This document shows, piece after piece, positions 53,809 through 64,000 of a stretch of 64,000 nt of DNA. The stretch comes from Desulfovibrio piger. GTDB lineage: Bacteria; Desulfobacterota; Desulfovibrionia; Desulfovibrionales; Desulfovibrionaceae. Made by a program: the position numbers and the translations under genes. The notes below the pieces were generated by a model that was not told the DNA's origin, did not search any database, and saw nothing but the letters and a program-made list of their open reading frames with translations. The stretch is taken from positions 1-64,000 of the forward strand of contig NZ_JABAFY010000005.1 of assembly GCF_012843875.1 (NCBI RefSeq). Reading direction: 5' to 3'. Position 1 is the stretch's first letter. Each line of letters begins with the position of its first letter.

Positions 53809-54849
53809 ATGAAAGCTGCTGCCATGAAAACCATTCACGTCAAGGACGCTGTCGGCAGCGTGCTCTGTCACGATATCACCCGCATCGTGCCCGGAGGGGA
53901 CAAAGGGCCCGTTTTCCGCAAGGGGCATATCGTGAGGGAGGAAGACATCCAAACCCTTCTGGAGGTGGGCAAGGAACATCTGTATGTGTACGAGCCGCAG
54001 GAGGGCGTGCTGCATGAGAATGAAGCCGCCCGGCGCATCGCGGCCGCTACGGCCGGGGCCAACATCACGCTGAGCGAGCCCAAGGAAGGGCGCATCAACT
54101 ACTCGGCGTCCTGTATGGGCCTCTTGCGGGTGGATGTCCCCACGCTGACCCGCATCAATTTGTTGGGAGAGATCACCCTGGCCACGCTGCACAGCATGCA
54201 GCAGGTCAGGCCGGGACAGAACCTGGCGGGCACCCGCGTGGTGCCCCTGCTCATCGAGGAAAGCAAGATCGTCGCTCTCGAGCAGCTGGTTTCCCGTCCC
54301 GTGGTCGAGGTCCTGCCCCTGCAAAAGTTCAAGGTAGGCATTGTCACTACCGGCAGCGAAGTCTACACGGGCCGCATCAAGGATGCCTTCGGCCCTGTGC
54401 TTCGAGACAAGTTCGCCCGCCTTGAATGCACCGTCATGGATCAGGTCTTCACCAGCGACGAAGTGGAGATGACCTCGTCAGCCATCAGCGGCTTCATCCG
54501 ACAGGGAGCCGACATGGTGGTGGTGACGGGCGGCATGTCCGTGGATCCCGACGACAAGACCCCCGCTTCCATCCGTGCCGCTGGCGCGCAGGTGGTGAGC
54601 TATGGCGCACCGGTCTATCCCGGGGCCATGTTCCTGCTGGGCTATGTGCCCACGGAACGCGGCCGCGTCCCCGTACTGGGGCTGCCCGGCTGTGTCATGT
54701 ATTACAAGGCCAGCATCTTCGAACTCGTAGTCCCGCGCCTTCTGGCCGGACTGGAGGTGACAGCCGAGGATATCGCCGGCATGGGTCACGGGGGCTTCTG
54801 CGCCGGCTGTGGCGAATGCCGTTATCCCATCTGTCCGTTTGGAAAATAG
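53809..54849 (+). CDS. Molybdopterin-binding protein with C-terminal cysteine cluster
   Basis: The 346-residue protein has a MoCF/MoeA-type molybdopterin-binding domain (about 172-315) with VGIVTTGSEVYTGRIKD and VVVTGGMSVDPDDKTP. The N-terminal part resembles MoeA-like proteins but lacks a full MoeA layout. The end carries Cys331, Cys334, Cys337 and Cys342 (CxxCxxCx4C), enough to hold an Fe-S cluster or zinc. The start has AGGAGA. It lies 51 bases before mop, which suggests that it inserts or carries the molybdenum cofactor for that enzyme. Confidence 0.83.
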   Translation: MKAAAMKTIHVKDAVGSVLCHDITRIVPGGDKGPVFRKGHIVREEDIQTLLEVGKEHLYVYEPQEGVLHENEAARRIAAATAGANITLSEPKEGRINYSASCMGLLRVDVPTLTRINLLGEITLATLHSMQQVRPGQNLAGTRVVPLLIEESKIVALEQLVSRPVVEVLPLQKFKVGIVTTGSEVYTGRIKDAFGPVLRDKFARLECTVMDQVFTSDEVEMTSSAISGFIRQGADMVVVTGGMSVDPDDKTPASIRAAGAQVVSYGAPVYPGAMFLLGYVPTERGRVPVLGLPGCVMYYKASIFELVVPRLLAGLEVTAEDIAGMGHGGFCAGCGECRYPICPFGK

Positions 54850-54900
54850 ACGGCGCGACAGCGACCGTCTCAACTTGCAAGCCGTTTCTAGGAGTCGCAT

Positions 54901-57630
54901 ATGGAAACGAAAACGCTTGTGGTCAATGGTATTCCCCGTCAGGTCCTGGTGGATTCCGACACTCTTCTCGTTGACGTGCTGCGCAACCAGCTGCAGATCA
55001 CCAGCGTCAAGGTCGGTTGCGGTCAGGGCCAGTGTGGTGCCTGTTCCGTGATCCTCGACGGCAAGGTCACCCGCGCCTGCATCGTCAAGATGCGTCGCGT
55101 GCCCGATCAGGCCCAGATCACCACCCTCGAAGGCGTGGGCACCCCCGCCAAACTGCATCCCCTCCAGGAATCCTGGATGTTCCACGGTGCGGCCCAGTGC
55201 GGTTTCTGCACGCCCGGCTTCATCGTGTCCGCCAAGGCCCTGCTGGACTCCAATCCCGCCCCCAGCCGTGAAGAAGTGCGCGACTGGTTCCAGAAACATC
55301 ACAATATTTGCCGCTGCACCGGTTACAAGCCCCTGGTGGACGCCGTCATGGACGCCGCCGCCGTCATGCGCGGTGACAAGGACATCGAAGAGCTGCACTA
55401 CAAGCTGCCCGCCGACGGTCGCGCCTTCGGTTCGCGTCTGCCCCGTCCCAGCGCCCTGGTCAAGGTGACCGGTCTGGCCGAATACGGCGCCGACGCCGCC
55501 GTGCACATGCCGCCCGACACCCTGCACCTGGCCCTGGCCCAGGCCAAGGTCTCCCATGCCATCATCAAGGGCATCGACACCTCCGAAGCCGAAAAGATGC
55601 CCGGCGTGGTCCGCGTGCTGACCCACAAGGACGTCAAGGGCAAGAACCGCATCACCGGCCTCATCACCTTTGCCGACAACAAGGGCGATGGCTGGGATCG
55701 TCCCATCCTCAACGATACCAAGGTGTTCCAGTACGGTGACGCCCTGGCCATCGTCTGCGCCGACAGCGAGGCCCACGCCCGCGCCGCTGCCGACAAGGTC
55801 AAGTTCGACCTGGAACTGCTGCCCGAATACATGAGCGCGCCCGAAGCCATGGCTCCCGACGCCATCGAGATCCATCCCGGCACGCCCAACATCTACTATG
55901 AGCCCCACATCGAAAAGGGCGAGGACACCAAGCCCTTCTTCGACGATCCCGAAAACGTGGTGGTGGAAGACAGCTTCTACACCCAGCGTCAGCCGCACCT
56001 GAACATCGAGCCTGACGTGGGTTACGGCTACCTGAACGAGCAGGGACAGCTGGTGATCCACTCCAAGTCCATCGGCCTGCACCTGCATGCCCTGATGATC
56101 GCCCCCGGTCTGGGCGTGAAATTCCCCGAAGAGCTGGTCATGGTGCAGAACACCACCGGCGGCACCTTCGGCTACAAGTTCAGCCCCACCATGGAAGCCC
56201 TCATCGGCGTGGCCGTGCTGGCCACCGGCCGTCCCTGCCACCTGCGCTACAACTACCAGCAGCAACAGCAGTACACCGGCAAGCGTTCGCCCTTCTGGAC
56301 CAAGGTGCGCATGGCCGCCAACAAGAAGACCGGTAAGATCGTGGCCATGGAGACCGACTGGACCTGCGACCACGGCCCGTACTCCGAATTCGGCGACCTG
56401 CTGACCCTGCGCGGCGCCCAGTTCATCGGCGCCGGTTACGGCATCCCCAACATCCGTGGTGACGGCCGCACCGTGGCCACCAACCACGCCTGGGGCGCCG
56501 CTTTCCGCGGTTACGGCGGTCCCGAATCGGAATTCCCCTCCGAAGTGCTGATGGACGAACTGGCCGAAAAGCTGGGCATGGATCCCTTCGATCTGCGCGA
56601 GCTCAACTGCTACAAGGAAGGCGACACCACGCCTACCGGCCAGAAGCCCGAGGTCATGAACCTGCCCACCATGTTCAAGGCCCTGCGTCCCAAGTATGAG
56701 GCCGCCAAAGCCAAGGCCAAGGCGGAATCCACCGATGCCGTCAAGCGCGGCGTGGGCCTGGCCCTTGCCGTGTACGGTGCCGGTCTGGACGGCCCCGACT
56801 CCTCCGAAGCCTGGGCCGAACTGAACCCCGACGGCTCCGTGACCATCGGCAGCTCCTGGGAAGATCACGGCCAGGGCGCCGACTCCGGCGCGCAGTGCAC
56901 CGCCCATGAGGCCCTGCGTCCCATCGGCCTGCCTGTGGAAAAGATCCGCCTGGTCATGAACGACACCAGCAAGACCCCCAACTCCGGTCCTGCCGGCGGT
57001 TCCCGCTCCCAGGTGATGACCGGCAACGCCATCCGCGTGGCCTGCGAACAGCTGGTGGAAGCCATGCGCAAGCCTGACGGCGGCTTCTACACCTATGATG
57101 AAATGAAGGCCGAGGGCCGCGCCGTGCATCAGGACGGCAAGTGGACCGCTCCGGCCCGCGACTGCGGCAAGAATTGCCAGGGCGAACCCTTCTGCTGCTA
57201 CATGTACGGCCTGTTCATGGCCGAAGTGGCCGTGGAAGTGGCCACCGGCAAGACCAAGGTGGAAAAGATGACCATGGTGGCCGACATCGGCAAGGTGGTC
57301 AACCGCCTGCTCACCGACGGCCAGCTCTACGGCGGTATCGCCCAGGGCATCGGTCTGGCCCTCACCGAAGACTACGAGGACATCAAGAAGCACAGCACCA
57401 TGGCCGGCGCCGGTATCCCCACCATCAAGGATATCCCGGACGACCTCGAGCTCATCTACGTGGAGACCCCGCGTCCTGACGGCCCCTTCGGCGCCTCCGG
57501 CACGGGCGAGATCCCGCTGTGCGGCCCGCATCCGGCCATCATCAACGCCATCTACAACGCCTGCGGCGTTCGCGTGACCCATCTGCCCGCGTACCCCGAA
57601 AAGGTGTTGGCGGCCATGCCCAAGAAGTAA
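54901..57630 (+). CDS. mop: Molybdenum-containing aldehyde oxidoreductase
   Basis: Mop oxidises aldehydes to acids at a molybdopterin-cytosine-dinucleotide centre and passes electrons through two 2Fe-2S clusters. The 909-residue protein has a plant-type 2Fe-2S domain with Cys40, Cys45, Cys48 and Cys60, a helical 2Fe-2S domain with Cys100, Cys103, Cys137 and Cys139 (all at the numbers known for the D. gigas enzyme), then the large Mo-binding part with GGTFGYKFS, AFRGYGGPE and the catalytic Glu870 in GASGTGEIPLCG. There is no FAD domain, as expected for this single-chain type. Codon use is extremely biased, pointing to high expression. AGGAG lies before the ATG. Two hairpins follow the stop. 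Confidence 0.97.
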   Translation: METKTLVVNGIPRQVLVDSDTLLVDVLRNQLQITSVKVGCGQGQCGACSVILDGKVTRACIVKMRRVPDQAQITTLEGVGTPAKLHPLQESWMFHGAAQCGFCTPGFIVSAKALLDSNPAPSREEVRDWFQKHHNICRCTGYKPLVDAVMDAAAVMRGDKDIEELHYKLPADGRAFGSRLPRPSALVKVTGLAEYGADAAVHMPPDTLHLALAQAKVSHAIIKGIDTSEAEKMPGVVRVLTHKDVKGKNRITGLITFADNKGDGWDRPILNDTKVFQYGDALAIVCADSEAHARAAADKVKFDLELLPEYMSAPEAMAPDAIEIHPGTPNIYYEPHIEKGEDTKPFFDDPENVVVEDSFYTQRQPHLNIEPDVGYGYLNEQGQLVIHSKSIGLHLHALMIAPGLGVKFPEELVMVQNTTGGTFGYKFSPTMEALIGVAVLATGRPCHLRYNYQQQQQYTGKRSPFWTKVRMAANKKTGKIVAMETDWTCDHGPYSEFGDLLTLRGAQFIGAGYGIPNIRGDGRTVATNHAWGAAFRGYGGPESEFPSEVLMDELAEKLGMDPFDLRELNCYKEGDTTPTGQKPEVMNLPTMFKALRPKYEAAKAKAKAESTDAVKRGVGLALAVYGAGLDGPDSSEAWAELNPDGSVTIGSSWEDHGQGADSGAQCTAHEALRPIGLPVEKIRLVMNDTSKTPNSGPAGGSRSQVMTGNAIRVACEQLVEAMRKPDGGFYTYDEMKAEGRAVHQDGKWTAPARDCGKNCQGEPFCCYMYGLFMAEVAVEVATGKTKVEKMTMVADIGKVVNRLLTDGQLYGGIAQGIGLALTEDYEDIKKHSTMAGAGIPTIKDIPDDLELIYVETPRPDGPFGASGTGEIPLCGPHPAIINAIYNACGVRVTHLPAYPEKVLAAMPKK

Positions 57631-57648
57631 ATGGAACAATGACTGTCC

Positions 57649-57737
57649 GGGGGGCCGGTTCGCCGGTCCCCCGTCAGATGCAGACAAGGCTGACGGCATC
57701 CTGCTGGAGGGATGCCGTCTTGCCCTGCACCGTTTTT
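57649..57737 (+). terminator. Double hairpin after mop
   Basis: Two strong stems follow each other: GGGGGGCCGG-TTCG-CCGGTCCCCC (57649-57672) and GACGGCATCC / GGATGCCGTC (57692-57719). A T6 run is at 57732. They probably terminate part of the mop transcript, or protect it, so that the maturation genes behind are made at a lower level. Confidence 0.6.
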
Positions 57738-57841
57738 TCTTCCCTGCCCGCCGCAGGCGTGCCGTGTGCCGTATCCGTTGCCTGCCTCCTCATGGGGCAT
57801 GACGATGCGGGGCCCCTGCCCGCTGGCATCCCGAGGTCCCC

Positions 57842-60205
57842 ATGAGCATTTCCATGAACAGCCAGAGCGCGCTGCATGAAGTGGAGTCCCGCTGCACGCA
57901 GGAGCGCCCGCCCCGTTGCCAGTCCCTGTGTCCGCTGGGTCTGGATGCGCGCGCCTTCCTCGGCCATGCCGCCGAAGGCCGCTGGAGCGACGCCCGCAAA
58001 CAGCTGGAACGTTATCTGCCCCTGCCGGGCCTGCTGGCCCGCGTCTGCGACCATCCCTGCGAACAGGGCTGCCTGCGCGGCGATCTGGGGGGCGCCGTCA
58101 ACCTGCACGGGCTGGAGATCTTCTGCACGGAGCATCTGGGCGTGCAGACCCGTTCCCTGCCCATGCCGCGCAAACAAAAGCGCATCGCCGTCATCGGTGC
58201 CGGCCTGGCCGGTCTGGTCTGTGCCTGGGATCTGGCCGGCAAGGGCTATCCCGTGACTGTCTTCCATGAAGGCGATCCCAAAGCACAATTGCTGTCCTGC
58301 TGGCCCGTGCTGGCCGGGGCGGGGGCCGCGGCCCTGGATGCCGAATGGGAGGCCCTGGTCCGCCGGGGCGTGCGCTTTGAGCAAGCCTCCACGGATGCGG
58401 CCTGCCTGCAACAGGCTGCCGGGGAGTACGAGGGCGTCCTGCTGGATGCCGGGGCCCTGCCGGAGCTGGTGCCCGCCGAAGACGGCGTGGACGCGCAGAT
58501 CCTGCACTGGCGGGACAACATCTGCTGCGCGGGCTGGGCCAGCGTCACGCCCACGGGCCACCGTTTCGCGTCCGCGTCGCGGCAGGCCGGGCAGGGCAGG
58601 AGTGCGGCCCGGACCCTGGAACGCCTGGTGGCCGGCGTGTCCCTGACCGCGGCCCGCGATACGGACGAGCGCAGCCTGTACACCGAGCTGGACGGCATCG
58701 CACCGGTGGAGCGGGTCCTGCCCGTCGCGGAAGTCTATTCCGAGGCGGAGGCCCGGCAGGAGGCCGGACGCTGCCTGCAATGCCAGTGCCTTGTCTGCGT
58801 CAAGGCCTGCGTCTATCTGCAAAAATACAAGGGCTATCCTCGCGTCTATGCCCGCCAGATGTACAACAATGCGGCCATCGTCAAAGGCCTGCATCTGGCC
58901 AACAACCTCATCAACGGTTGCGCCTTGTGCGGGCAGTGCGAGGAACTGTGCCCCGAGAATTTCTCCATGGCCGAGCTTTGCCTGAGCGCGCGGCAGGACA
59001 TGGTGGAGCGCGGCGTCATGCCGCCTTCGGCCCATGAATTCGCGCTGGAGGACATGGAAGCCGCCAGCGGCCCGGAATGCGCCCTGAGCATCAGGGGAGG
59101 GGAGGGCGGCTGGCTGTTCTTCCCCGGCTGCCAGCTGGCGGCCTCGCGCGGGGAGCAGGTGGAAGCCCTCTATGCCTGGCTGCGTGACGCGCTGGCCGGG
59201 CAGGGCGAGTTCGCTCCCGGCCTGGAACGCGGGCCCGTGAGCCTGCTGCTGCGCTGTTGCGGCATCCCGGCACGCTGGGGCGGCCGCGAAGAACTTTTTG
59301 CCCGACAGGCGCAGGAATTGCGGCAGCAATGGGAAGGGCTGGGCAGGCCGCGGATCATGGCCGCCTGTTCGTCCTGCCTCTCCGTCCTGCGCGAGGTCCT
59401 GCCCGAGGCGCGGGCCCTCTCCCTCTGGGAGGTACTGGATGCCCTGCCGTGGCCCGAAGGCACTTCCGGCGGTGCGGACAGGGGCACCCTGCTGACCATG
59501 CAGGACCCCTGCACGGCCCGGCACGATACGGCATGGCAGGACGCCGTGCGTTCGCTGGCGCGCAAGGCCGGCATGATTCCGGAAGAGCCGCCGCAGGGGC
59601 GCGACAGGACGGCCTGCTGCGGGTACGGCGGTCTGGTCTGGTGTGCTCAGCCGGAACTGGCCGATGCCATGGCCGGTCACCGGGCCGGAGGATTGCCGCA
59701 TGCGGCCCTCAGTTCCTGCATCATGTGCCGTGACCGTCTGGCGGGCAGCGGCAAGCCCGGTCTGCATCTGCTGGACCTGCTGCCGCAGCTGGCCCCGCTG
59801 GCCCACGGTCTGGAGCCGGAAAAGGGGCCCGGCCTTTCGGAACGGCGCGCCCGTCGTGCGGCCTTGCGCCGTCGTCTGGCCCGTATCTGGCTGGGGCAGG
59901 AACTGGCCGAACCGGCCGCCGGGCGGCTGGACCTTGTCTCCGGCCTGCTGGAAGAGCTTGAGCGTCGCCATATCCTGCTGGAGGACGTGGACGGGGCCGT
60001 GGCGGCCGTGGAAGCGGAAAAGGCTTATTTCGTGGATGCGGAGAGCGGCCATCGCCTGGGCGCGTGGCGGCCGCGCAACGTGACCTTCTGGGTGGAATAC
60101 ACGGAAGAAGACGGGCGCTGGCTGTTGCATGATGCCTGGTGCCACCGGATGCGCGTGCCGGGCAGCGGCGGCGTGCAGGAAAACGGCTGCTGCGGGGAGG
60201 CGTAA
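57842..60205 (+). CDS. FAD / 4Fe-4S / CCG-domain fusion oxidoreductase
   Basis: The 787-residue protein joins three parts. Residues about 1-110 resemble the Fe-S helical domain of GltD-type subunits (Cys26, Cys30, Cys69, Cys73, Cys77). A dinucleotide motif IAVIGAGLAGLVCAWDLAGKG follows at 115-135, but the flavoprotein region is shortened compared with GltD. Around 310-380 come CLQCQCLVCVKAC and CALCGQCEELCPENF, two ferredoxin-like cysteine sets. The C-terminal half has two HdrB-like CCG segments (LLRCCGIPARWGG, and QDPCTARHD with ACCGYGG and SSCIMCRD). It likely moves electrons between an Fe-S carrier and a partner such as Mop or a pathway intermediate. It is coupled to the next gene (one base between). 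Confidence 0.82.
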   Translation: MSISMNSQSALHEVESRCTQERPPRCQSLCPLGLDARAFLGHAAEGRWSDARKQLERYLPLPGLLARVCDHPCEQGCLRGDLGGAVNLHGLEIFCTEHLGVQTRSLPMPRKQKRIAVIGAGLAGLVCAWDLAGKGYPVTVFHEGDPKAQLLSCWPVLAGAGAAALDAEWEALVRRGVRFEQASTDAACLQQAAGEYEGVLLDAGALPELVPAEDGVDAQILHWRDNICCAGWASVTPTGHRFASASRQAGQGRSAARTLERLVAGVSLTAARDTDERSLYTELDGIAPVERVLPVAEVYSEAEARQEAGRCLQCQCLVCVKACVYLQKYKGYPRVYARQMYNNAAIVKGLHLANNLINGCALCGQCEELCPENFSMAELCLSARQDMVERGVMPPSAHEFALEDMEAASGPECALSIRGGEGGWLFFPGCQLAASRGEQVEALYAWLRDALAGQGEFAPGLERGPVSLLLRCCGIPARWGGREELFARQAQELRQQWEGLGRPRIMAACSSCLSVLREVLPEARALSLWEVLDALPWPEGTSGGADRGTLLTMQDPCTARHDTAWQDAVRSLARKAGMIPEEPPQGRDRTACCGYGGLVWCAQPELADAMAGHRAGGLPHAALSSCIMCRDRLAGSGKPGLHLLDLLPQLAPLAHGLEPEKGPGLSERRARRAALRRRLARIWLGQELAEPAAGRLDLVSGLLEELERRHILLEDVDGAVAAVEAEKAYFVDAESGHRLGAWRPRNVTFWVEYTEEDGRWLLHDAWCHRMRVPGSGGVQENGCCGEA

Positions 60206-60206
60206 G

Positions 60207-60422
60207 ATGAGTATCGGTCCCAATTATGAACCGGATGGCGGCAGCTGGACGTGCGGCCGCTGTGGCTGCCCGCTGGAACAGGGCAAGGTGCAGGTCTTTT
60301 ACCTCAACAGCGCTTTTGACGTCATGCTGCCGCGCTGTCCGCAATGCGGGCTGACCATGGTGCCCAAGTCACTGGCCGAGGGCAAGATGCTGGAAGTGGA
60401 AGCCCTGCTGGAAGACAAGTGA
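60207..60422 (+). CDS. Small CxxC protein of the mop cluster
   Basis: The 71-residue protein has Cys16, Cys19 and Cys21 near the N-terminus and Cys44, Cys47 in the middle, an arrangement like a zinc ribbon or a small redox protein. GGGGAGG stands before the ATG, which follows the previous stop by one base. The next gene starts on a GTG that overlaps its stop. Similar small proteins accompany this type of cluster in other Desulfovibrio, as I remember it. Confidence 0.75.
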   Translation: MSIGPNYEPDGGSWTCGRCGCPLEQGKVQVFYLNSAFDVMLPRCPQCGLTMVPKSLAEGKMLEVEALLEDK

Positions 60423-61123
60423 GCCAGCTCTACACCCGGCCGGAATTCAGGCGCATCGCGGGCGAACACTGGCGGCCCGGCGGGACGGAGATCACGGACA
60501 GGCTGCTGGCCCTGGGGCGGCGCTGGCATGATGCCGGGGCGGAAGGCCGTATCCTGGACGTGGGCTGCGGGCCCGGCGGCAGTGTGCGCCATCTGCGGCA
60601 GCAGGGGCGGCAGGTCTGGGGCCTGGATACCGTGCTGCGTCCCCAGTGGCGGACGGAAGCTCCGCCTGTGACCGGGGAACGGCCGTATCTGGTGGCCGAT
60701 GCCTGCGCTGGCCTGCCCCTGCGGGACGGTGTGCTGGATATGATATTGTGTGAATGCGTGCTGTCCGTATTGCCGGACCCCGCCGCCTTTCTGCAGGAGG
60801 CCCGGCGCGTCTTGCGGCCGGGCGGTCTGCTGGCGTGCAGTGATCTGTACCGGCGTGGAGAAGAGAGCGTCCTTGCGCCGCAGCCCGCCGGCTGTGCGTC
60901 CGGGGCCCGTTCCCGTGCGGGCTGGACGGCGCTGTGCGAAGGGGCGGGCTTCACCGTCCGGCATTTCGAGGATGCCAGCCCGGCCCTGGCCCGTCTGGCC
61001 GCGGCGCTGGTCTGGTATGGCGACAAGCGGAGCCTGCGGGAATGGGGCCTGTGCGGGCCCGGTCGCGGCGGAGCGGCATCCCGGCCCGGTTATGCGCTCT
61101 GGATCGCGCAAAAGGAGGAATGA
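60419..61123 (+). CDS. Class I SAM-dependent methyltransferase of the mop cluster
   Basis: The 234-residue protein has motif I ILDVGCGPGGSVRHL (about residue 50), an acidic residue at the end of the second strand (WGLDTV), and VLDMILCECVLSVLPDP with RRVLRPGGLLACSDLY, typical for small-molecule methyltransferases (UbiE/COQ5-like). GTG at 60419 overlaps the preceding stop (GTGA) and begins the homologous region. The substrate is unknown. Placement next to the radical SAM gene suggests the same pathway. Confidence 0.82.
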   Translation: MSQLYTRPEFRRIAGEHWRPGGTEITDRLLALGRRWHDAGAEGRILDVGCGPGGSVRHLRQQGRQVWGLDTVLRPQWRTEAPPVTGERPYLVADACAGLPLRDGVLDMILCECVLSVLPDPAAFLQEARRVLRPGGLLACSDLYRRGEESVLAPQPAGCASGARSRAGWTALCEGAGFTVRHFEDASPALARLAAALVWYGDKRSLREWGLCGPGRGGAASRPGYALWIAQKEE

Positions 61124-61584
61124 TGCATCCCCTGATGATGGATCTTTTGCCGCTGGTGCGGCAGGGCTATTGCTGCAGCCAGCTGCTGGTGCAGCTTCTG
61201 GTGCAGGCCCAGGGCAGGGAAGTTCCGGATCTGGTGCGGGCCCTGCACGGTCTTTGTCACGGCATCGGCCAGTCCGGCGGGCCCTGCGGCCTGCTCACGG
61301 GCGGTGCCTGTGTGCTGGCCCTGCTGGCGGGCAAAGGCGCGGAAGGCGAGGAGCCCCATCCCATGCTGGCCCCCCTGCTCAATGATTACGCCAGCTGGTT
61401 TTACGAGCGCACGGCGGCCTACGGCGGCCACTCCTGCGAACAGGTGGCGCTGGGGCTGGGAGCGCGTACGGCGGCGGGCGCGGAGCCCGATCCCGTGGCC
61501 TGTGGCGACCTGCTGGCCGAATGCTGGGAAAAAATTTTGGAGCTGATCCAGAACTACGATCTGGATTTCATGGCCCATGCCTGA
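61123..61584 (+). CDS. C_GCAxxG_C_C family redox protein
   Basis: The 153-residue protein fits the pattern of this family: CC in GYCCSQ (about 18), GLCHGIGQSGGPCGLLTGGAC (split as CHG and GGPCG/TGGAC, about 47-65) and GHSC (about 106). Family members are thought to bind an Fe-S cluster or act in redox reactions. An ATG at 61120 is possible too, but 61123 has the better distance to AGGAGG. Its end overlaps the radical SAM gene by eight bases. Confidence 0.83.
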   Translation: MHPLMMDLLPLVRQGYCCSQLLVQLLVQAQGREVPDLVRALHGLCHGIGQSGGPCGLLTGGACVLALLAGKGAEGEEPHPMLAPLLNDYASWFYERTAAYGGHSCEQVALGLGARTAAGAEPDPVACGDLLAECWEKILELIQNYDLDFMAHA

Positions 61585-63037
61585 GGTGGACGTGGAGATA
61601 TTGCACGAGACCCAGAGCCTGTGCCCTGTCTGCCTGCGACGGCTGGATGCCCGGTATGTGCGGCGGGGGCAGAGCATCCTGCTGGAGCGTACCTGCCCGG
61701 AACACGGTACCTTTGCCGTGGACATCTGGCACGAACGGACGGAAGAGGACGTCACGCCGCCGCGTTTCGACGGCTGGTCACGGCCCAAAACGCCGTCGTA
61801 CCCGCGTGAACCGCGCACAGCTGTCCGGCACGGCTGCCCCTATGATTGCGGTCTGTGTCCGGCCCATGCCCAGCATACCTGCACGGGCCTGGTGGAAGTG
61901 ACCCTGCGCTGCAACATGGCCTGTCCCATCTGCTATGCGGCGGCCGGCGGGGCCGTGCCCGACGATCCTTCGCCGGAGATCGTGGCCTTCCAGCTGGACA
62001 GCCTGCGCCGGGCCTCGCCGGGCTGCAATGTCCAGCTTTCCGGCGGCGAGCCCACAGTGCGCGACGATCTGCCCGCCATCATCCGCATGGCGCGGGAACG
62101 GGGCTTCGGCCTGTTGCAGGTCAACAGCAACGGTCTGCGTCTGGGGCTGGAAGCGGGCTATGCCCGAACGCTGCGCGAGGCCGGGCTGGATTCCGTCTAC
62201 CTGCAATGGGACAGTCCCGATCTGGAGGGCTGTCTGCCTTTGCGGGGGACCGTGGCCCTGCCCGATGGGCTGGATCTGCTGGCGGTCAAGCGCCGGGCCG
62301 TGGAGCAGTGCACGGCCGCCGGTCTGGGCGTGGTGCTGGTGGCCACCGTGGCCCGGGGCGTCAATGATGACCGTCTGGGGGCCCTGCTGCGTCTGGCGCT
62401 GGAGCTGGGCCCCGGCGTGCGCGGCCTGCATATCCAGCCCGTGGCCCGTTTCGGCCGCTATCCCGGACGGCTGGAAGACGGCCTCCGCTTCACCCTCAGC
62501 GATGTGATGGCCGCCCTGTGCCGTCAGGTCCCGCAGTGGCTGCGCATGGAGCATTTCCACCCGCCGGGCTGCGAGCATTCCCTTTGCTCCTTTAGTTCGC
62601 TCTACGCGCGGGAAAAGGCGGCGGACGGCAGCCCGTCCCTGCGCTGGCTGCCTGATGCGGCCCGCTCCTGCTGCGGGCCTGCCGTGGACAAGGTGCCGGT
62701 CCCGGCGGCCGAAGGGGCGCGCAAGTCCCGGCAGTTCGTGGCCAGTCACTGGCGCGGTGACGACAGTCCCCGGGACGGGGGCAAGGCGGCGCTGGCCGAT
62801 GACTTCGGCCGCTTTCTGGCCCGTGCCGGGGCCGAACAGCGCTTCACCCTTTCCTGCATGGCTTTTCAGGACGCGCTCTCTCTGGACGTGGAGCGGGTGC
62901 GCGGCTGCTGCATCCATGTGGTGCGCCCCGATGGCCGCATGATCCCCTTCTGCCTCCACAACCTTACGTCCACGGAAGGCCGGATGCTCTATCCGCAGCG
63001 TCTGGCTTGCGGGGAGGAAGGCCATGACGGCATCTGA
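61577..63037 (+). CDS. Radical SAM protein with two tandem CX3CX2C motifs
   Basis: The 486-residue protein has an N-terminal CPVC/CPEHG zinc-ribbon-like part (Cys16, Cys19, Cys40), then CPYDCGLC (Cys87, Cys91, Cys94, followed by Cys102) and CNMACPIC (Cys112, Cys116, Cys119). The second set is followed by the radical SAM elements QLSGGEPTVRDDL and LLQVNSNGLRL. Two CX3CX2C sets in a row with PAHAQHTC between them is the layout of the MJ0619/tetraether-synthase group, which includes a pterin C-methylase in methanogens. A C-terminal part has further Cys (CGPAV, SCCG, GCCIH). It probably carries more than one 4Fe-4S cluster. Product is unknown. Confidence 0.85.
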   Translation: MPEVDVEILHETQSLCPVCLRRLDARYVRRGQSILLERTCPEHGTFAVDIWHERTEEDVTPPRFDGWSRPKTPSYPREPRTAVRHGCPYDCGLCPAHAQHTCTGLVEVTLRCNMACPICYAAAGGAVPDDPSPEIVAFQLDSLRRASPGCNVQLSGGEPTVRDDLPAIIRMARERGFGLLQVNSNGLRLGLEAGYARTLREAGLDSVYLQWDSPDLEGCLPLRGTVALPDGLDLLAVKRRAVEQCTAAGLGVVLVATVARGVNDDRLGALLRLALELGPGVRGLHIQPVARFGRYPGRLEDGLRFTLSDVMAALCRQVPQWLRMEHFHPPGCEHSLCSFSSLYAREKAADGSPSLRWLPDAARSCCGPAVDKVPVPAAEGARKSRQFVASHWRGDDSPRDGGKAALADDFGRFLARAGAEQRFTLSCMAFQDALSLDVERVRGCCIHVVRPDGRMIPFCLHNLTSTEGRMLYPQRLACGEEGHDGI

Positions 63038-64000
63038 TCCGCGTTCTCCGGCAAAGGCACGGAGTACGGGGCAAGCGCCGTCGCTCCTGCCCCCGGCCGT
63101 CCGGCAGGCCCTGGAACATCCCGGGCCTTTCGCGCTGGGGCTGGATGCCTGGCTGGCGGCGGAGTGCGGTGAGACGCACCCCAAAGGACTGGCCGCCGCC
63201 GTGCGGGCACGCCAGCTGGAGCTGCTCAATGCCGATCTTTGCCATATGGCGCTGCACAGTCCTTTGTACCGGCAACGTCTGGCCGGGGTCGGGCGCTGGT
63301 CCGCGGCAGGTCTTCGTCCTTTGCATGATCTTGCCGAACTGGCGGAACTGCCGTTCACCATGGCCGACGATCTGCGCCCCGGCGAGGCGCTGCTCTGTGT
63401 CTCGCGTGACGAGGTGGCGCGCATGGTCACGGTGAGCACCTCCGGCAGTACGGGCGTGCCCAAACGGCTGGCCTTCAGCGATGCCGAGCTGGCGCGCACA
63501 CGGGACTTCTTTGCCGTGGGCATGGCCCAGATGGTCACGGCAGGGCAGCACGTGGCCGTGCTGTTGCCGGGCGCCCACCGCCCGCGGGGCATCACGGATC
63601 TGCTGGCCGGGAGCCTGGCGCCGCAGGGCGTGAGCGTGACGGCCTGCATGGACCTGGCCGACCTGCTGCTGTGTGTGCCGGAGCAGGCCCCAGAAGGGGC
63701 GGCGGCCCGTCTGGCGGCTGTCCGTGCCGCCTGGCAGGCGCTTGCGGCCACCGCTCCCGCCGGTCTGGGGCTCGTGCTGCTGCCCCGCCAGATGGCGTGC
63801 CTGTGGCGGGCCTTTCCCCAGACGCCGCCGGGCCTGTGTGCCGCCCTGTGCGCTGCCGACTGGCTGGATCCCGGTCTGCGCCGTCAGGTGGAGCAGGGCT
63901 GGGATTGCCTTGTGCTGGATCATTACGGCTCCACGGAGAGCGCCTTTGCCGGGGCCGTGCAGTGCCGCTGCCGTGAAGGGCGGCATGTGCGGGCCCTGGA
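63024..64000 (+). CDS. Phenylacetate-CoA-ligase-like adenylate-forming protein (cut by window end)
   Basis: The frame starts with GGAGGAAGG ahead of the ATG, overlaps the radical SAM gene by 14 bases and is open to the last base of the window (325 codons visible). It shows the adenylate-forming P-loop TVSTSGSTGVPKR (residues 136-148) and a YGSTES motif (about 300), as in PaaK-type ligases. The N-terminal segment with HSPLYRQRL is typical for PaaK as well. It would activate a carboxylic acid with ATP. Substrate unknown. Confidence 0.85.
   Translation, partial: MTASDPRSPAKARSTGQAPSLLPPAVRQALEHPGPFALGLDAWLAAECGETHPKGLAAAVRARQLELLNADLCHMALHSPLYRQRLAGVGRWSAAGLRPLHDLAELAELPFTMADDLRPGEALLCVSRDEVARMVTVSTSGSTGVPKRLAFSDAELARTRDFFAVGMAQMVTAGQHVAVLLPGAHRPRGITDLLAGSLAPQGVSVTACMDLADLLLCVPEQAPEGAAARLAAVRAAWQALAATAPAGLGLVLLPRQMACLWRAFPQTPPGLCAALCAADWLDPGLRRQVEQGWDCLVLDHYGSTESAFAGAVQCRCREGRHVRAL

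Follow-up and report, generated by a model that had tools for sequence, protein, structure and literature searches.

Why should a molybdenum-dependent aldehyde oxidoreductase be encoded together with a radical S-adenosylmethionine (SAM) protein, a methyltransferase and a ligase? The question is raised by a locus of Desulfovibrio piger (assembly GCF_012843875.1, genome of 2.86 Mb) at the end of the DNA stretch analysed here, called the window below, which comprises positions 1–64000 of the 103,048-base contig NZ_JABAFY010000005.1. The locus starts with genes for a MoeA-like protein (A) and for the oxidoreductase Mop (B, 54901..57630, + strand), which are followed by genes for a heterodisulfide-reductase-like protein (C) with a C-terminal domain termed Cc, a small protein (D), a methyltransferase (E), a C_GCAxxG_C_C protein (F), the radical SAM protein TrsS (G, 61577..63037, + strand), and a PaaK-like ligase (H). 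Mop is well studied, while the radical SAM, methyltransferase and ligase partners had no explanation in the literature searched, where no paper accounting for the set or for Mop's travel with it was found (Haft and Tolstoy 2025 was not covered). Genome comparisons divided the locus into a molybdenum-cofactor module and a portable Trs core (TrsS, D, Cc, and H, usually with C and E). Since this core occurs in bacteria and methanogens without a molybdenum hydroxylase match, it probably makes a product of its own rather than finishing Mop.

Distribution of TrsS, D and Mop

The names of the phylum and order used below were inferred from D. gigas, which falls within the window's family, and from locus L105, which is labelled Methanomassiliicoccaceae. 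The window's phylum was represented by 296 genomes. TrsS was detected in 36 of them (34 over the curated cut-off and two split genes) and Mop in 29 (28 above the cut-off and one half gene), while 28 have both. The split TrsS genes (G036 and G294) and the half Mop gene (G092) were added by hand, and without them the counts are 34 for TrsS, 28 for Mop, 26 for both, two for Mop only, and eight for TrsS only. The only genome with Mop and no TrsS was G209, where the Mop gene is interrupted by the end of a contig, and TrsS occurred without Mop in eight of 36 genomes. In one of the eight, G201, the contig that bears TrsS is 4.9 kb long, and in the tree described below this TrsS clusters with the Mop lineage, thus Mop may be missing from the assembly. 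The 149 genomes of the window's family included 95 with Mop, 92 with TrsS, and 91 with both, as judged by thresholds of our own (E < 1e-100 for Mop in searches with 309 residues of the D. gigas protein, and E <= 1e-60 for TrsS, 90 of the 92 being over the curated cut-off). The completeness of the four Mop-only genomes of the family is 54 to 93 percent, and they are split into 170 to 820 contigs. In another genome of the family (G317:C34:21840-24223), two TrsS matches stand in tandem and no Mop match was found.

Molybdenum hydroxylases in general were sought with PF02738 in 31 chosen genomes, most of which have TrsS and no Mop in the stretch at hand. No match was obtained in ten of the 31 (four from the window's phylum, which are 90 to 100 percent complete, one from Chloroflexi, and five archaea). 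The search was also negative in all 38 TrsS genomes of L105's order and, altogether, in 40 of 40 distinct archaeal TrsS genomes (three shared with the 31-genome set); as a control, it was positive in five of 14 genomes, two of them archaeal. The radical SAM proteins were compared in a tree of 117 rows, made by a quick method without bootstraps or an outgroup, which, being unrooted, gives no answer on whether archaeal TrsS groups with bacterial TrsS to the exclusion of tetraether synthase (Tes). Four groups were distinguished: 27 rows that we labelled Tes-type (support 99), five archaeal TrsS (support 100), ten Mop-free bacterial TrsS (support 98, including L110 of unknown context), and 75 rows of the Mop-operon group (support 99). 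PF02738 was matched in 17 of 17 tested genomes of the Mop-operon group, in three of eight of the Mop-free group, and in none of the 40 archaeal genomes, so the link to molybdenum hydroxylases is strict within one lineage and breaks down in the others. The TrsS genomes without such a match rule out that the set functions with Mop only.

The preliminary description of this DNA read the extra enzymes as accessories of Mop that build or install a further modification on the pterin cofactor or on the protein, or that make a small electron carrier, and it expected the set only where Mop-type enzymes are present. The accessory reading held in part, as Mop is nearly always accompanied by the set (28/29 in the phylum, 91/95 in the family) and one TrsS group keeps to it. 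The expected restriction proved wrong: four genomes of the phylum, one of Chloroflexi, and all 40 archaeal ones tested have TrsS with D or Cc-D and no molybdenum hydroxylase match. We consider it improbable that the set modifies Mop or its cofactor. The rarity of Mop without TrsS, the 17 of 17 Mop-lineage genomes with a hydroxylase, and the gene order largely kept across phyla would fit such a role, but the core persists without a hydroxylase match in the five bacterial and 40 archaeal genomes. The modification is further weakened by D. gigas. Mop of G331 matches the crystallised D. gigas enzyme (identical over 309 residues), and its 20 kb stretch carries the operon A-B-C-D-E-F-G-H-XdhC-J, in which gene I, a MocA-like gene described below, was not found. 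According to the available parts of PMC3877041 and PMC10223205, this enzyme contains pyranopterin cytidine dinucleotide with an oxo in place of the sulfido ligand, in crystal structures of 1.28 to 1.75 A. As D. gigas has both the operon and a Mop with this ordinary cofactor, a modification of the pterin should have been seen, the best structure being at 1.28 A. A change brought about by the Trs proteins may still lie outside the visible Mop chain, or the set may help in assembly only. The other molybdenum hydroxylases of the phylum, unlike Mop here, mostly occur without Trs: matches to the Mop model with E <= 0.001 were present in 160 of 296 genomes (28 over the cut-off), and 128 of the 160 lack TrsS.

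The partner that TrsS does not part with is D (60207..60422, + strand), a small protein of the DVU_1557 family (DUF7479, PF24292; NF045645 93 bits, cut-off 60). D was found in 36 of 36 TrsS genomes of the phylum and in two of the other 260 (G209, and G146 with a marginal E of 4e-4); as only 28 of the 36 have Mop, TrsS tracks D more closely than Mop. Among 61 genomes of L105's order, TrsS was found in 38 (36 over the cut-off, plus the partial genes of G456 and G477), a fused Cc-D gene in 38, and both in 37, adjacent to each other in 35 of the 37. G477 has TrsS without a Cc-D match, G474 has Cc-D without TrsS, and 23 of the 61 genomes are without TrsS, the completeness of the archaeal genomes not being given.

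This nearly one-to-one pairing (36/36, and Cc-D in 37/38 archaea) might mean that TrsS acts on D or on the Cc-D pair, a modified residue serving as a protein-bound redox group or being released as a peptide-derived cofactor. D is small, has a well-kept C-terminus (LEDK in the window's copy), and carries a Tyr in >90% of aligned rows. In pyrroloquinoline quinone (PQQ) and mycofactocin systems, a radical SAM protein is paired with one small precursor peptide, but no sign of D processing was seen. The CxxC..CxxC pattern of D, present in bacteria and lost in four archaeal rows, fits a structural or redox part, and the closest TrsS relative with a characterised function has lipids rather than peptides as substrates, as far as the available part of its description goes (PMC9433317). 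Altogether, D as the substrate seems quite unlikely to us.

Gene neighbourhoods and the two modules

Forty-one regions were mapped, that is, the locus itself and 40 regions around TrsS, Mop, or lower-scoring radical SAM genes; for loci from named records, 80 of 295 confirmed loci were tabulated, and tallies over them should not be read as frequencies. Allowing for gaps and rearrangements, the order A-B-C-D-E-F-G-H-XdhC-I-J is repeated in the mapped Mop operons of Desulfobacterota, Desulfosporosinus, Sporomusa, Acetobacterium, Sulfurospirillum, Chloroflexi, Pleomorphomonas, and Synergistaceae. Mop-free bacterial loci keep Cc, D, E, and TrsS together in nine listed cases (L048, L049, L051, L053, L057, L063, L066, L087, and L094), eight of which are distinct because L063 and L094 are one contig. 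By our own thresholds, H is present in 8/9, C in 7/9, and F in 2/9 of them. The setting of Cc varies: Mop operons have it at the C-terminal end of C, Mop-free bacteria encode it as a gene of its own, and the archaeal Cc genes that were aligned join it to a D-like domain. This archaeal D-like domain matches DUF7479 with E 0.0012, below the family cut-off. The fusions of Cc to C and to D point to joint working of C, Cc, and D.

In five archaeal loci (L100, L104, L105, L112, and L126) TrsS and H occur together, and a Cc-containing gene lies upstream in four of the five, L112 starting inside TrsS. Directly upstream of Cc-D, a gene of the URO-D family was identified in L105 (L105:3915-5033, by Pfam), and similar sequence is present in L100 and L126; its product could replace methyltransferase E in archaea. 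Three loci labelled Oscillospiraceae (L117, L122, and L124) have a CobW-type GTPase gene preceding TrsS (PF02492 in L122, judged by eye from sequence similarity in the other two), and in L117 and L124 TrsS lies near mod and MoeA-like genes.

The flanks of the Mop-free bacterial loci contain a 2-hydroxyacyl-CoA dehydratase component and its activator (L049), MaoC-like genes (L048 and L087), and SdhA/B-like genes, a corrinoid protein, and RACo (L051). Together with the PaaK-like nature of H, these neighbours would suit a metabolic pathway centred on Mop, in which the aldehyde is oxidised to an acid, H makes the coenzyme A (CoA) ester, and the radical SAM protein and the methyltransferase act on this compound or on a precursor. 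Such a pathway is unlikely, however, as TrsS and Cc-D are kept in 38 of 61 Methanomassiliicoccales genomes, H being present in all five archaeal loci that were read, and these methanogens are not known to carry out such catabolism. C, D, and F have the look of redox components.

TrsS, its partner proteins and a possible product

The profile of TrsS matches the glycerol dibiphytanyl glycerol tetraether (GDGT)/macrocyclic archaeol synthase (MAS) 7tol, that is, Tes (GDGT-MAS, MJ0619), over 439 of 454 positions. By comparison with the metal ligands of Tes given in the available part of PMC9433317, TrsS retains the rubredoxin motif CX2C..CX2H, the ligands of the N-terminal cluster (C, C, C, H), and CX3CX2C; the two proteins have four metal sites in common. 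M403 of TrsS (window residue 428) aligns with the labile Met439 of Tes; since the Met439 to Ala variant of Tes remained active according to the same partial source, M403 is no proof of mechanism. An insertion of ~20 residues near profile position 314 of Tes is missing from TrsS. Tyr459 of Tes, described there as completely conserved in 1000 archaeal homologues, has no Tyr counterpart in 25 aligned TrsS rows, and no TrsS row fell inside the Tes-type clade of the quick unrooted tree. TrsS also differs from Tes in being accompanied by D, Cc, and H. Membership of TrsS among the tetraether synthases is ruled out by the tree and the Tyr459 position, and this is supported by the second, lower-scoring match of Tes-like score in 38 of 38 archaeal TrsS genomes. 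The homology suggests that TrsS carries out the same kind of radical C–C chemistry as Tes on another substrate.

The same homology, which extends over nearly the whole length with identical metal ligands, could also mean that TrsS, like Tes, works on lipids and that the product of the set is an unusual membrane lipid; the accessible part of PMC9433317 mentions bacterial homologues in organisms not known for biphytanyl chains. We give little credence to this explanation, as the archaea with TrsS already carry a Tes-like match of their own, TrsS stays outside the Tes-type clade and lacks the Tyr in 25 rows, and D, C, and F would be left without a role. Bacterial Tes-type radical SAM homologues were observed in four genomes of the window's phylum (G286, G038, G130, and G190; loci L069-L072), outside the TrsS groups. 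Those included in the tree from these lower-scoring loci and from archaeal and other hits (L129-L147 and L149-L152) grouped apart from TrsS, and no Trs core genes besides the radical SAM gene were found in the stretches read, save methyltransferase matches in L145, L147, and L150.

The redox character of the set is most evident in C (57842..60205, + strand), which combines flavin adenine dinucleotide (FAD), 4Fe-4S dicluster, and CCG domains (Pfam matches PF14691, PF13534, and PF02754; NF045663 832 bits, cut-off 530), while the Mop-free form tested (L048) has the 4Fe-4S and CCG domains. The fold of its Cc domain (about residues 705-771) is predicted to be of the RelE/BrnT (BECR) type from the model of an archaeal relative (predicted local distance difference test, pLDDT, 77; best Z 8.1 and 7.8), and the 50 matches listed were all toxin, toxin-antitoxin, or RNase entries. 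Unlike these proteins, Cc forms part of a redox protein, is encoded next to D, or is fused to a D-like domain. F (C_GCAxxG_C_C protein of the DVU_1555 family, 61120..61584, + strand; NF045669 156 bits, cut-off 103) has four invariant Cys in an alignment of 23 rows, and its predicted fold (pLDDT 90.8) resembles part of the split-Soret cytochrome c 1h21, the entry title of which mentions a novel iron centre (Z 8.6, root-mean-square deviation 3.4 over 136 residues, the next row being at Z 4.8; Foldseek E 0.068 with probability 0.99; weak match by profile, E 6e-4). F is a stand-alone protein of 154 residues, the chain of the cytochrome being longer at 247.

Taking these results together, we favour, at somewhat less than an even chance, the reading that Trs is a pathway in its own right, yielding a redox carrier that is handled on C, Cc, and D, and that one lineage coupled this pathway to Mop. 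What it makes, the redox role of this product, and the order of steps we infer as follows. The first module, consisting of the MoeA-like, MocA-like/HD, phosphatase, and modABC genes, with XdhC in many relatives, would supply and insert the molybdenum cofactor of Mop. The second, the Trs core (TrsS, D, Cc, and H, usually C and E, with F in most Mop operons), would constitute a pathway independent of Mop. Ligase H would activate an acid, and methyltransferase E (in archaea perhaps the URO-D-family protein) and TrsS, by Tes-type radical C–C bond formation, would build a small group, made or held on Cc and D and partnered with the iron–sulfur redox protein C. As a redox carrier, this group would link a dehydrogenase with C. 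Mop would be that dehydrogenase in one lineage, where aldehyde electrons would exit via the carrier, and elsewhere other enzymes would use the carrier. That the product is an electron carrier is a guess, although of the options named in the preliminary description it is the one that survives best.

Several observations weigh against this carrier pathway. The Cc domain is matched weakly in the window's own copy of C (E 9.3e-4), and no match with E <= 0.001 was obtained by Foldseek for the models of Cc and F (best E for Cc, 0.023). C, E, and F were not seen near TrsS in the five archaeal loci read. The neighbours in Mop-free bacteria suggest a connection to acyl-CoA metabolism. Given the strict link in the Mop lineage and the other molybdenum hydroxylases present in three of eight tested genomes of the Mop-free lineage, the set may have a Mop-specific role in the Mop lineage. 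Finally, D. gigas Mop transfers electrons to flavodoxin in vitro, as stated in the available part of PMC10223205, so no new carrier would be needed.

A more specific form of the proposal, in which the carrier is new, small or protein-held, made by Tes-type coupling, common to anaerobic bacteria and Methanomassiliicoccales, and the natural acceptor of Mop-type oxidoreductases, is in our opinion possible but rather doubtful. In the part of PMC4153887 at hand, three Methanomassiliicoccales genomes are reported to hold genes for a liposoluble (membrane-soluble) electron carrier of undetermined nature, and the archaeal Trs product might be this carrier or related to it, which is only an idea. The presence of the core without molybdenum hydroxylases and its tighter pairing with D direct the search away from the molybdenum cofactor and towards a new compound, either a small molecule or a group bound to a protein, and a short gene list (trsS, Cc-D, and the ligase) with two very different kinds of host is available for finding the product.

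The operon in the window and its flanks

All eight genes lie on the + strand in the order previously described, and their types were borne out by Pfam and NCBIfam matches. C, D, E, F, TrsS, H, I, and Mop all exceed the curated cut-offs of eight NCBIfam models, so the operon is no chance run of genes; the near-consecutive numbers of these models (NF045645, NF045646, NF045663, and NF045665 to NF045669) indicate that the set is evidently known to curators. The locus is thus an ordinary member of this set, to which the model names assign no function as a whole. TrsS scored 536 bits with NF045646 (cut-off 490), Mop 1656 bits with NF045668 (cut-off 1100), and methyltransferase E (SAM-dependent, DVU_1556 family, 60419..61123, + strand) 210 bits with NF045667 (cut-off 155). 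Ligase H (adenylate-forming, DVU_1553 family, 63024..64283, + strand) runs past the window end at 64000, and gave 373 bits with NF045666 as a whole gene and 241 bits for its part in the window (cut-off 300).

The gene starts of D (60207), E (60419, GTG), and F (61120) were corrected. The MoeA-like gene and mop are separated by 51 bp, mop and C by 211 bp, and C and D by 1 bp, while D/E, E/F, F/TrsS, and TrsS/H overlap by 4, 4, 8, and 14 bp, respectively. The preliminary description counted seven mostly overlapping or nearly abutting genes after mop. Six genes follow mop within the window. Its comparison with a D. vulgaris run of about DVU1551-DVU1559 was upheld by the NCBIfam names, which include DVU1551, 1553, 1555, 1556, and 1557, and by DVU1559, listed as an aldehyde oxidoreductase in data tables of two papers seen in part; DVU1558 is mentioned once in the available portion of PMC3114432. 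A selenoproteome review of 2026 (PMC13188914) lists TrsS in its accessible part, with a citation of Haft and Tolstoy (2025). The NCBIfam name of NF045646 contains "(seleno)protein", and in the loci read through, an in-frame TGA in TrsS was found only at or beyond the C-terminal end.

The operon comprises ten genes and continues beyond the window edge at 64000. H is overlapped by 19 bp by gene I (contig 64265-65503, 362 bits, cut-off 315), which encodes a MocA-like nucleoside triphosphate (NTP) transferase with an HD domain, and directly after I lies gene J for a CobC-like phosphatase (contig 65505-66218). Downstream of J, a reverse-strand recombinase-like/TOBE gene is followed by modA, modB, and modC. 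MoeA-like, XdhC, MocA-like, and mod genes are the expected requirement of a molybdenum hydroxylase that has a cytidine-dinucleotide cofactor. The MoeA-like, MocA-like/HD, and modABC genes are in place here, and XdhC is found on a separate contig of the genome (C57); a gene of ~350 residues near H and I in relatives was identified by Pfam as XdhC (L080 and L077). Thus, the equipment expected for the Desulfovibrio Mop/aldehyde oxidoreductase (1vlb and 1dgj) is present. The nearest solved structures of Mop are 1dgj and 1sij/1vlb, and by its score and the end-to-end alignment with 1dgj and 1sij it has the D. gigas-type architecture. A second Mop-like gene with an in-frame TGA was noticed in another genome (G224:C11:56171-58696; 1056 bits, cut-off 1100).

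A (MoCF_biosynth, PF00994 E 2.5e-22; 53809..54849, + strand) ends in a tail of the form GHGG(F/L)C..C..C..P.C.FGK, or near it, in 25 of 25 rows listed, its own included (window 54784-54849), and this Cys-rich tail may bind a metal or a cluster. The reverse-strand gene beyond J (contig 66589-67695, L002:6590-7696) adjoins modABC and joins a Phage_integrase-type domain to a Mop/TOBE domain, a fusion that presumably resembles the tungstate-responsive regulators of sulfate reducers.

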